A DNA stretch of 54,369 nucleotides from Caldilineales bacterium (GTDB lineage Bacteria; Chloroflexota; Anaerolineae; J102): contig JAIBAP010000012.1 in assembly GCA_019695115.1 (NCBI GenBank), forward strand, positions 50,001 to 104,369, written 5' to 3'. Below, one piece after another: positions 6,252-54,369 of this stretch. The position numbers were made by a program, and so were the translations under genes. The notes beneath the pieces were generated by a model, which saw only the letters and a program-made list of their open reading frames with translations, did no database searches and was not told the origin of the DNA. Positions within the stretch are counted from its first letter, which is position 1, and every line of letters begins with the position of its first letter.

Positions 6252-7463
6252 TTGCCCCTCCGTCTCCTCCTCCTCCTCCCCACCTCACCCCTCCCTGTCT
6301 TCAGTGGTGGGCGGGTGCGGATGTTCGAGGTAGTGCGGCGGCTGGCCCGACGCCATGAGGTCAGTGTTGCCGGCTTCTGGCGGAACGAGGAAGCGCGCCG
6401 GGGCTGGCAGCAACTGGGGCGCGAGCTTAACATCGAGGTTCAGGCCGTGCCCTTCACCCGCCTTCGCCCCGACCGGCGGCTGCCGGGGCTGCTGCGGCGG
6501 CGATGGCAGGGCTGGAGGCAGGGCGAGCCGGGCGACGCCGGCGCCTGGGATCAGCCGGCCATGCATGCGGCCCTGCGGCGGATGATGGCCGGGCAGCGCT
6601 TCGACCTCCTGCAAGTCGAGTGGCCCTACCTGGCGCCCTACGCCCTGACAACCCCCCAACTCCCCCGGCTGCTGATCACGCACGACATCTTTAGCGTGGC
6701 TCTGGCCCGCCGCGCCGGGCTGGCCGCCGGGCGCCAGCAGAAACGGCTGGAGCGAGAGGCCGCTGCCTGGGCCAGCTACGAGAGCCGAATCTATCCTCAG
6801 TTCCAGGCTGTGGCGGCGATGTCGGCTGAGGATGCAGCCGTCATCCGCCAACGGGCGCCGGCCGCCAACGTTGTCGTGCTGCCAAACGGCGTCGATACGG
6901 CCCACTTCACCCCCGGCGAGATCCGACCCCAGCCGCGCCATCTGATCTTCGTCGGCTCGCCCACCCATGTCCCCAACCTCGACGCCGCCTGCTGGCTGCT
7001 GAACGAACTCTGGCCCGAGCTGCGTCGCCGCCGCCCCGACTTGCGCCTGACCCTGGTCAATCTCGACCATCCACAGGTGCGCAAGCTCCAGCAGCCTGGG
7101 GTCGAGATCAGCGGCCGGTTGCCCGACCTGCGGCCGGTCTACGGCCAGGCCGACCTCGCCATCGTCCCCTTGCGGGCCGGGTCGGGCACACGGCTGAAGA
7201 TCCTGGAGGCCTTCGCTGCCGGGCTGCCGGTGGTCAGCACGCCGGTCGGCCACGAAGGGCTGGAGGTCGTCCCCGGCCGCCACTTGCTCAGCGCCGAGAA
7301 CGGCCCGGCCTTGATCGAAGCCATCGAAACCCTGCTCGACGATGTCGAACTGCGCCGAAGGCTGGCAGCCAATGCCCGGCAGCTGGCCGTCTCCCGCTAT
7401 GATTGGGAGCTCATCGTCGACCAGCACGACGCCATCTACCACCAACTTTGCCAACGCCCATGA
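6252..7463 (+). CDS. Glycosyltransferase family 4-type (GT-B fold)
   Basis: 403-residue GT-B glycosyltransferase transferring a sugar from an activated donor, probably to a cell-surface glycan or lipid. The N-terminal acceptor domain begins LLLLPTSPLPVFSGGRVRMF. The hinge region holds LPNGVDTAHFTP, and the donor site shows GSGTRLKILEAFAAGLPVVS with the E-x7-E type arrangement and the following TPVGHEGLEV. The TTG at 6252 is the best start in frame; a start a few codons later is possible. Its stop overlaps the ATG of the DsbA-like gene (ATGA), so the two are translationally coupled. Confidence 0.88.
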   Translation: MPLRLLLLLPTSPLPVFSGGRVRMFEVVRRLARRHEVSVAGFWRNEEARRGWQQLGRELNIEVQAVPFTRLRPDRRLPGLLRRRWQGWRQGEPGDAGAWDQPAMHAALRRMMAGQRFDLLQVEWPYLAPYALTTPQLPRLLITHDIFSVALARRAGLAAGRQQKRLEREAAAWASYESRIYPQFQAVAAMSAEDAAVIRQRAPAANVVVLPNGVDTAHFTPGEIRPQPRHLIFVGSPTHVPNLDAACWLLNELWPELRRRRPDLRLTLVNLDHPQVRKLQQPGVEISGRLPDLRPVYGQADLAIVPLRAGSGTRLKILEAFAAGLPVVSTPVGHEGLEVVPGRHLLSAENGPALIEAIETLLDDVELRRRLAANARQLAVSRYDWELIVDQHDAIYHQLCQRP

Positions 7464-8266
7464 AAACCCGCATCTTGTTCCTTCTCCTCCCCCTCGCCGC
7501 TTTGGTGGGGGCGTGTGGCGGCGCGTCCATCAGACTAACGACCGCGCCGGCGACGCTGGTCGTGGCGATGGCAGCCGAGCCAACGACGCCGCCAAAGGCC
7601 GACCCGACTGCCACCGTCGCCCCACTCCCCAGCCCGGAAGCCACGCCAGCCGAGACGCCGACCGCCGCCCCGGCGCCCACCGCTGAACCTGAACCAACTG
7701 CGCTGCCGGCGCCAACCGATTGGGCCGAGTTCGAAAGCCGGACAGCCGACGGGTTCTATGTGCGCGGGAACCCCGACGCGCCCATCCTCATCCTCGACTA
7801 TTCCGACTTCCTCTGAGGGGCCTGCCGCGCGCACGTGTTGCGCACCGAACCAGCTCTTATCGAAGCCTATGTCCGCACCGGCCAGGCCAGATTGCAGTTC
7901 TGGCATATCCTCGACCACGCCAACGCCTCGGTGCAGGCGTCGATGGCGGCCGAATGCGCCGGAGAGCAGGGCGCTTTCTGGCGGATGCACGATGCGCTGT
8001 TCGAGAATCAGGAACAGTTGTGGGGAGCGGACCCGGAAACGCATGTCGGTCTGGCCGCCAACCTCGGCCTCGATGCCGAAGCCTTCCGGCAGTGCATGGC
8101 CGGCGGGGTGAAGGAGAAGGTCATCGCCATTGACCGGCAGGCTAAGGCAGCCGGGGTGCGCATCCGCCCCACTTTTGACATCAGCACGGCCGGCGGCGCC
8201 AGCCAACGGCTGCAAGGATCTCCGCCCATCGACCAGTGGCAGACCTTGCTCGACGCCTTGCAGTAG
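7460..8266 (+). CDS. DsbA-like thioredoxin-fold lipoprotein, candidate selenoprotein (TGA at residue 119)
   Basis: Read through the TGA at 7814-7816, the frame gives 268 residues. It has a lipoprotein signal with lipobox LVGAC (Cys19), a Thr/Pro/Ala linker to about residue 85, then a DsbA/thioredoxin-fold domain. The active site reads LDYSDFL-(TGA)-GACRAHV, where the family has CxxC, so TGA stands exactly for the first catalytic Cys and Cys122 is the second. The domain continues normally: AAECAGEQGAFWRMHDALFE, then the cis-Pro loop VRIRPTFDI and a final helix. A SECIS-like hairpin follows the TGA. It would act outside the membrane as a disulfide oxidoreductase with Sec-x-x-Cys. The alternative is a nonsense mutation of a Cys codon. 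Confidence 0.75.
7817..7850 (+). promoter_or_regulatory. Candidate bacterial SECIS element after TGA 7814-7816
   Basis: The mRNA after the TGA can form a hairpin GCGCA (7829-7833), loop CGTGT (7834-7838), TGCGC (7839-7843). The loop starts 18 nt after the TGA and has G in its second position, similar to the distance and loop-G rule of E. coli fdhF. A C/A mismatch and weaker outer pairs lie below the stem. Folded by eye only. Confidence 0.45.
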
Positions 8267-46839: not shown

Positions 46840-47026
46840 GCGCAGGTGTCCGAGCTATCGCATCGCCGGGTTTTCTGGCTTGGGCCGAATGGCCCCAACA
46901 GTTGCGGGACAGCGCCGGATTGATTGAAGCTGGTCTGCCAGGGCAGAGGCTCCACACCGGACTTCCCCCGGCCATCTCCGGTCGAGATGGAAGGATGCGA
47001 TCAGGCAAAGGTGGTATGGAAATGTG
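46840..47026 (-). promoter_or_regulatory. Cobalamin riboswitch
   Basis: The minus strand carries the B12-aptamer signatures: GGGGAAGTCCGGTGTGGAGC (46950-46970), then TCCGGCGCTGTCCCGCAACT with GT (46896-46920, the B12 box), GCCAGAAAACCCGGC-type closing elements, and the long peripheral helices. The boundary is approximate. A promoter precedes it and an intrinsic terminator follows, so binding of a cobalamin should switch off transcription of the toroid-DUF4430-ECF operon. Confidence 0.88.
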
Positions 47027-48354: not shown

Positions 48355-50975
<2,621 letters not shown>

Positions 50976-52991: not shown

Positions 52992-53633
52992 ATGCACATC
53001 ACCCTCTACCACGACACCGTCTGACCGTTCTGCCGCATCGGCAAGCGGCATTTGCAGCGGTCGCTGCAACACTGGCAGGGCGAGGCCGTTACGGTCGAGT
53101 ACCGGACCTTCCTGCTCAACCCGGCCATTCCACCCGAAGGCTACGATTTCGTCCCCTATATGCAGGCCAAGTTCGGCGGGCGGATCAGCCTGCAACAGGC
53201 CTTCGACGGCCCGCGGCGGCTGGGCGCAGCCAGCGGTCTGGTCTTCAACATGGACAGGATCAGCAAGGCCCCGAATTCGGTACTCTCCCACTGCCTCATT
53301 GCCCTGGCCCCCGCCGACCGTCGCTCCGACCTGGTCGATGATGTCTACGCCGCCTATTTCGAGCACGGGCAGGACATCGGCGACCTCGAGACCCTGTTGG
53401 GGATCGGCCAGAAGCACGGGCTGGAGGCCGGCAAACTGCGGGCGGAGTTGACCGGCGGGGCGGTGAAGCAGCAGGTTTTACAGGAGGCGGAAGAGGCCTA
53501 TCAACTCGGCGTCGACGCTGTGCCGTTGTTCGTCTTCAACCGTCGCTACGGTCTCACCGGCGCCCAACCGCCGGAGGTCATTCTCAATGCCCTGCGCCAG
53601 GTGGCGGCGCGCCAGGAGGGTGAGCCAGCATGA
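52992..53633 (+). CDS. FrnE/DsbA-family thioredoxin-fold oxidoreductase, candidate selenoprotein (TGA at residue 11)
   Basis: Read through the TGA at 53022-53024, the frame gives 213 residues of the FrnE-like DsbA family. The N-terminus is MHITLYHDTV-(TGA)-PFCRIGK, where the family has DTVCPWCRIGK, so TGA replaces the first catalytic Cys and Cys14 is the second. The helical insertion (NPAIPPEGYDFVPYMQAKFG, SHCLIALAPADR) and the cis-Pro loop DAVPLFVFNRRYGLTGAQPP are all intact. Without readthrough only a truncated protein from about 53052 would be made. AGG lies 8 nt before the ATG. Its TGA stop overlaps the next gene's ATG. Confidence 0.78.
53025..53052 (+). promoter_or_regulatory. Candidate bacterial SECIS element after TGA 53022-53024
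   Basis: TGCCGC (+7 to +12 after the TGA) pairs perfectly with GCGGCA (+21 to +26). Inside, a T-A pair can close a CGGC loop with G at its second position, 16-17 nt after the TGA. Folded by eye only. Confidence 0.45.
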
Positions 53634-54259
53634 AGATCGTCGTCTTTGGCGCCACCGGCGGCGCCGGGAGCGAAATCGTCGCGCAGGCGCTGGCGGCCGG
53701 ACATCAGGTCACAGCCTTTGTGCGCAACCCTGCCAAACTCAGCCTCCAGCATCCCAACCTGAGCCTGTTCCAGGGCGATGTGATGGACGCCGCTGCCGTG
53801 GAGCAGGCCGTCGCCGGGCAAGAGGCGGTCATCAGCGCCCTGGGGCCAACGCGTCCGCCCGTTGCCGGGATGATGGAGACGGCGGCCAGGAATATCGTCG
53901 CCGCTATGGACAAGCACGGCGTGCGCCGGCTCATCTCCACCACCGGGGCCGGGGTGCGCGACCCGCAAGACCAGCCCAAGCTGTTCGATCAGGTGATGAT
54001 GGGGCTGCTGAGGCTGCTGGCGAGAGATGTCCTGGCTGACTCGGCCGCCAATGCAGCGGTCCTGCGCAGCAGCAACCTGGATTGGACGATCGTCCGCTTT
54101 CCTCGGCTCACAGATGGGCCGCAGACGGGCAAGTATCGCGCCGGCTATGTGGGCAAGGATTCGGGCAGTCAGCTTTCCCGCGCCGATGGGGCCGAGTTCG
54201 TGCTGCGGGAGCTGGCCGAAGGCAAATTCATCAGGCAGATGCCGGTGGTCAGCTATTGA
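53630..54259 (+). CDS. NAD(P)-binding (atypical SDR / NmrA-like) protein
   Basis: 209 residues. Rossmann fold with MKIVVFGATGGAGSEIVAQA, AGHQVTAFVRNPAKL and LFQGDVMDAAAVEQAV, typical of the NAD(P)H-binding atypical SDR group (NmrA/BVR-B-like). RRLISTTGAGVRDPQDQPKL and LDWTIVRFPRLTDGPQTGKY complete the fold. Functions range from flavin or biliverdin reductases to redox sensors. Coupled by ATGA overlap to the FrnE-like gene, so a redox function is plausible. The last eight codons (RQMPVVSY) and the stop are duplicated in the tandem repeat after the gene. Confidence 0.88.
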   Translation: MKIVVFGATGGAGSEIVAQALAAGHQVTAFVRNPAKLSLQHPNLSLFQGDVMDAAAVEQAVAGQEAVISALGPTRPPVAGMMETAARNIVAAMDKHGVRRLISTTGAGVRDPQDQPKLFDQVMMGLLRLLARDVLADSAANAAVLRSSNLDWTIVRFPRLTDGPQTGKYRAGYVGKDSGSQLSRADGAEFVLRELAEGKFIRQMPVVSY

Positions 54260-54369
54260 CCTCGGTGGGCGGATTGCCAGGATGGGCGGATGGGGCAAAT
54301 ACAGCAGGCAGATGCCGGTGGTCAGCTATTGACCTCGGTGGGCGGATTGCCAGGATGGGCGGATGGGGC
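54232..54369. repeat. 73-bp tandem duplication at the window end
   Basis: 54232-54296 is repeated exactly at 54305-54369 (period 73), including the 3' end and stop of the upstream gene and a GGGCGGATTGCCAGGATGGG stretch. The second copy is cut by the window edge, so more copies may follow. Confidence 0.85.

Follow-up and report, generated by a model that had tools for sequence, protein, structure and literature searches.

A FrnE-like oxidoreductase gene in a Caldilineales bacterium very probably encodes selenocysteine at the first position of its active site

This study examined a frnE-like gene interrupted by an in-frame TGA in a 54,369-nucleotide stretch of DNA from a Caldilineales bacterium (Chloroflexota; GenBank assembly GCA_019695115.1, contig JAIBAP010000012.1). 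The entire stretch is referred to as the window, and all coordinates follow its numbering. The features at the locus are listed below; L050 and L051 denote the closest relatives of the gene, which together with the window gene are called the Sec trio.

52992..53633, forward strand: predicted frnE-like selenoprotein gene (213 aa, Sec at residue 11); PF01323 match; stop TGA at 53631-53633
53022..53024, forward strand: UGA codon predicted to specify selenocysteine at the first position of the U-P-F-C redox motif; TGA in L050 and L051, TGC or TGT in 14 relatives
53031..53050, forward strand: 6-bp stem TGCCGC-AUCGGCAA-GCGGCA of the original prediction; a true inverted repeat, judged not to be a SECIS
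53052..53069, forward strand: bacterial SECIS candidate, 7-bp stem TTGCAGC/GCTGCAA with loop GGUC (53059-53062); agrees with the published model and is kept in the Sec trio
53630..54259, forward strand: NAD(P)H-binding NmrA-like protein, predicted operon partner (PF13460, 1.4e-49)

The frame 52992-53633 lies approximately 740 bases from the contig end and is open except for a single internal TGA at codon 11, and its read-through product begins with MHITLYHDTV-U-PFC-RIGKRHLQRSL. This product matched the Pfam family DSBA (PF01323) over residues 3-201 (2.9e-27; 96 bits against a cut-off of 25.6) and aligned over its full length with the solved FrnE of Deinococcus radiodurans (5cnw/5cp1; 3e-31), with the TGA opposite the first active-site Cys. 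The open frame and these alignments confirmed the original prediction that the TGA at 53022-53024 occupies the place of the first Cys of a FrnE motif. In the AlphaFold model (pLDDT 94.4), for which the top PDB match was FrnE 5xwh (TM 0.90), helix 1 (residues 12-26) begins immediately after Sec11, and VP178 at the putative cis-Pro loop was invariant across the FrnE alignment. No signal peptide was seen by eye in the product (MHITLYHDTV), and the protein is therefore probably cytosolic; FrnE proteins have been predicted to be cytosolic (PMC8945050).

Translation might instead start downstream of the TGA, for example at the TTG at 53052 selected by a standard gene caller, and yield a shorter protein without the redox motif; a 193-aa frame (53052-53633) is indeed available under table 11. 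Such a start would discard strand 1 and the entire UPFC motif, the most conserved parts of the protein, and the TTG itself sits within the stem of the SECIS candidate. Furthermore, the ten codons preceding the TGA are kept as protein in relatives (MKITVYHDTV, MHITVFHDTV), indicating that the gene is not simply started downstream of the TGA, and we consider the chance that this explanation is correct to be minimal. The original prediction had also warned that automatic annotation would lose the gene; for frnE, standard calling would truncate it, and the active site would be gone.

A search for the Sec machinery, proposed in the original prediction, revealed that the source genome (5.99 Mb, 135 contigs, 100% complete, 2.3% contamination) encodes tRNA-Sec with a UCA anticodon (73 bits), SelA (553 bits), SelB (335 bits in total), and SelD (353 bits), all on contigs of this draft assembly other than that of the window. 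SelD carries its own in-frame TGA in CAGU, and an in-frame TGA is also present in one FdhA. The presence of tRNA-Sec, SelA, SelB, and SelD argues against the decoding of UGA as another amino acid, such as Trp, through code reassignment or near-cognate suppression, for which this analysis found no support. UGA serves as a normal stop in this genome, including at the end of the frnE-like gene, and relatives carry Cys, not Trp, at the position; the probability of such decoding is thus negligible.

Relatives were sought in 400 Chloroflexota genomes, of which 108 contained a match, including 56 whose match was interrupted by an in-frame TGA; in the extracted TGA matches, the TGA was located at the first Cys of CxxC. 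SelA and SelB were both present in 55 of the 56 TGA-FrnE genomes, and SelA was present in both remaining genomes of the Sec trio. Across the 400 genomes, SelA was found in 331; the family cut-offs were exceeded in 321 (SelA) and 307 (SelB), and the association with TGA-FrnE yielded Fisher p values of ~4e-5 (SelA) and ~4e-6 (SelB) when relatedness was ignored. On its own, this co-occurrence is weak evidence because genomes of the sampled phylum commonly have the Sec machinery. The original prediction had named retention of the TGA without the Sec machinery as a sign against Sec decoding, and one exception was observed: in G095, a 220-contig draft with a TGA FrnE, the SelA match was only fragmentary, and SelB gave none at the chosen threshold. 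This gap probably reflects draft incompleteness; otherwise, G095 is a counter-example.

The original prediction had also suggested an alignment of homologues for TGA/Cys pairs, and such pairs were found. The closest relatives, L050 (69% identity) and L051 (genome G332, 58%), both carry TGA. In 14 relatives from their clade, which are about 35-59% identical to the Sec trio, the codon is TGC or TGT. Two same-genus genomes had no frnE match at E <= 1e-40, and the nearest Sec/Cys comparison is therefore at 47-59% identity. In a FrnE tree from which the Sec residue had been excluded, the Sec trio formed one clade (SH-aLRT 99) nested within an otherwise Cys clade comprising the 14 Cys proteins (SH-aLRT 98). 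This nesting suggests that a single Cys-to-Sec replacement occurred in the ancestor of the three genomes, along with the evolution of the hairpin. L105 (G712), considered as a Sec form in a Cys genus, was rejected; its active site reads CPWC, and its TGA falls close to the C-terminus, at residue 207.

The hairpin at 53052-53069 agreed with every criterion of the published bSECIS model (loop of 3-9, stem of 4-16, G in the first two loop positions, spacing of 16-37, and <= -7.5 kcal; PMC13188914). Its loop follows the UGA by 34 nt, close to the upper limit of the spacing that the model allows, and its predicted energy is -9.4 kcal/mol. Folds of 45-54 nt kept the hairpin, and the fold of 60-72 nt preferred another pairing that breaks it. 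Among synonymous recodings, 3.7-10.6% per Sec gene gave an equally stable hairpin; the hairpin in any single gene is thus only modestly improbable, and the weight of the SECIS comes from its conservation. It was kept in all three Sec genes, being identical in L050 and differing in L051 by one G-C pair replaced by A-U, with both changes synonymous (CAG to CAA and CTG to TTG), and the homologous stem in the 14 Cys relatives retained only 2-5 of the seven pairs. Family-wide, a model-conforming hairpin was detected in 34 of 43 TGA genes versus 8 of 48 Cys genes (Fisher p 1.6e-9, relatedness ignored).

In the source genome, the TGA of SelD is followed by the hairpin GGCGCA-GGUCC-UGCGCC and that of FdhA by GUCACC-GGUCU-GGUGAC. 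The GGUC loop core is thus apparently common to frnE, SelD, and FdhA, and is plausibly the feature that this SelB would recognise. In frnE, the loop is supplied by the codon pair CGG-TCG; Sec members read HLQRSLQ (HLQ-RS-LQ), and several Cys members read HLQLALA (HLQ-LA-LA) or similar. Because CGG-TCG encodes the loop, the two residues RS in the Sec forms appear to be a consequence of the RNA signal, and RS in these forms versus LA in most Cys forms would offer an example of a SECIS constraint on protein sequence.

The original prediction had proposed a different signal, namely a perfect 6-bp stem at the right distance from the TGA. The stem is present (arms 53031-53036 and 53045-53050), but the distance is not right, since the UGA-to-loop spacing is only 12 nt; moreover, neither of the first two positions of the loop AUCGGCAA is a G. 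The stem is broken in the Sec relative L051 and intact in the Cys relative L023. As a SECIS, it therefore fails the published model in spacing and loop G and is not Sec-specific; conservation of the coding sequence for CRIGKRH accounts for it best. The hairpin at 53052-53069 is the better candidate.

A TGA is only one base away from TGC or TGT, and the codon could accordingly be a former Cys codon changed by a nonsense mutation, or one misread through a base error, in a gene that yields no full-length protein. The family provides an apparent precedent in L029 (G348). This gene was considered as a further independent Sec gain and rejected because no model SECIS follows its TGA and the codon is TGT in the congener G317 (L041, with a 1-base frameshift just after); its TGA may be an error or decay, and the pair of L029 and L041 is a useful negative control. 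In the Sec trio, by contrast, the TGA recurs at 58-69% identity in three genomes that were assembled independently, the remaining frame is intact, and purifying selection is evident on both sides of the TGA (dN/dS ~0.21 between the window gene and L050). In addition, the matching hairpin is limited to the TGA genes of the clade. Pseudogene formation or sequencing error is thus largely refuted by the shared TGA and SECIS, and we consider it very unlikely.

The complete machinery, the TGA/Cys pairs, the conserved SECIS candidate, and purifying selection together strongly support Sec decoding over decay, as the original prediction had proposed. We are highly confident that the gene product is a cytosolic FrnE-type DsbA-fold thiol-disulfide oxidoreductase in which Sec replaces the first active-site Cys (U11-P-F-C14) and the UGA is read through by means of the hairpin at 53052-53069. 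A ribosome meeting the UGA at codon 11 would receive Sec from SelB, which with Sec-tRNA(UCA) would bind the downstream GGUC-loop hairpin, and would then continue in frame as far as the stop ending at 53633. From its place at the N-terminal end of the first helix, Sec11 would provide the selenolate that attacks disulfides or oxidised thiols of the substrate; the resulting Se-S intermediate would be resolved by Cys14, and the enzyme would be regenerated by a cellular thioredoxin or glutathione system. We infer these steps, together with the catalytic direction (reduction, isomerisation, or oxidation) and the partners of the predicted oxidoreductase.

The start of the NmrA-like gene overlaps the frnE stop (ATGA), and an NmrA-like homologue adjoins frnE in L051 (70% identity) and the Cys-encoding frnE in L022 and L109. 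The overlap and the conserved adjacency suggest a redox-linked operon, without pointing to a specific substrate. At the very end of the contig, two tandem 73-nt copies (97% identical; 54221-54366) include the end of the NmrA-like gene and are probably an assembly artefact. Elsewhere in the window, a cobalamin riboswitch (RF00174, 42.1 bits) is located on the reverse strand at 46848-47011, and an ARAGORN call of tRNA-Thr (GGT) on the reverse strand at 50144-50232, within a long open frame, is possibly false.

A further TGA-containing gene is present in the window at 7460-8266 (forward strand), with the TGA at 7814-7816, a Thioredoxin_4 domain (3.1e-19), and the motif U-G-A-C; its product is a probable lipoprotein with the signal MKTRILFLLLPLAALVGAC. 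The TGA is followed by a weak 5-bp hairpin, GCGCA-CGUGU-UGCGC (spacing 17), the energy of which (-5.8 kcal) misses the published cut-off. The original prediction had considered this gene and frnE to be two unrelated thioredoxin-fold genes with the same substitution. Two such genes do exist, but they are not entirely unrelated; the product of this gene matches PF13462 and, weakly, PF01323, the family matched by the frnE-like product.

A second, distant FrnE-like clade was observed in the Chloroflexota sample (L064-L103, 40 loci; motif SDYIUPWCYVG); of 38 members sampled, 37 have TGA in place of the first active-site Cys. Most members have a hairpin with the loop 19-25 nt past the UGA, and the core stem columns are 82-97% paired, with several pair types. 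One member, L102 (G269), has Cys (TGC) and still carries a stable hairpin at the SECIS position, which suggests a recent Sec-to-Cys reversion. L100 and L103 (G208 and G276) form a deviant FrnE-like pair with the motif U-V-W-C on a long branch, and a model-conforming SECIS was not found in L100. No published description of this TGA clade was found in the literature searched. We lean towards the view that Sec entered Chloroflexota FrnE-fold enzymes more than once, through a recent replacement in the Sec trio with a new long-spacing GGUC SECIS and through an older, phylum-wide clade with a different hairpin and rare reversion. If this is true, the phylum would be a natural test of the joint gain and loss of Sec and its RNA signal.

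Under the Sec reading, an ordinary disulfide-handling enzyme would gain a more reactive active site, and the Chloroflexota would gain a well-supported Sec-containing FrnE. The Sec versions with the SECIS hairpin and the Cys versions lacking it form a clean pair for studying the benefit of Sec and the constraint of the SECIS on the protein. The overall picture of selenoprotein biology is unchanged by this gene.

COG2761 is the COG of FrnE. Sec DsbA-like UxxC proteins assigned to COG2761 were reported in 2005 in the Sargasso Sea selenoproteome (PMC1088965), and the finding is therefore not new in kind. DsbA-like selenoproteins were counted in later surveys (PMC5029168; PMC13188914, as "DsbA-like protein form 1"), and eukaryotic Sec-FrnE is listed in SelenoDB 2.0 (PMC3965025) and in an Archaeplastida survey (PMC6627142). 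The placement of the gene in a family with already known selenium versions is well supported; a literature search of incomplete coverage found no paper on Sec FrnE in Chloroflexota.

The DsbA-like selenoprotein of COG2761/PF01323 likewise belongs to the same Pfam family, has Sec first in UxxC, and has a bacterial SECIS just past the UGA, whereas the present gene is from Chloroflexota; this likeness is drawn from the published description. The Deinococcus radiodurans FrnE (DR_0659; 5cnw, 5cp1, 5xwh) resembles the frnE-like protein in full-length sequence and fold, and its CP(W/F)C position corresponds to UPFC, but its active site has Cys in place of the Sec predicted for the frnE-like protein. 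The D. radiodurans enzyme also has a C-terminal CX4C regeneration motif (PMC8945050) that is absent from the 213-aa frnE-like protein, in which C101 is the sole Cys besides Cys14; its regeneration must therefore differ. Because CX4C is also absent from some other FrnE proteins (PMC8945050), membership in FrnE is not excluded. The Sec-FrnE proteins of algae and animals are recognised selenoproteins of the FrnE/DsbA family, to which the frnE-like protein also belongs, but they depend on eukaryotic decoding with a 3'-UTR SECIS, whereas the gene described here has a candidate bacterial in-frame SECIS.
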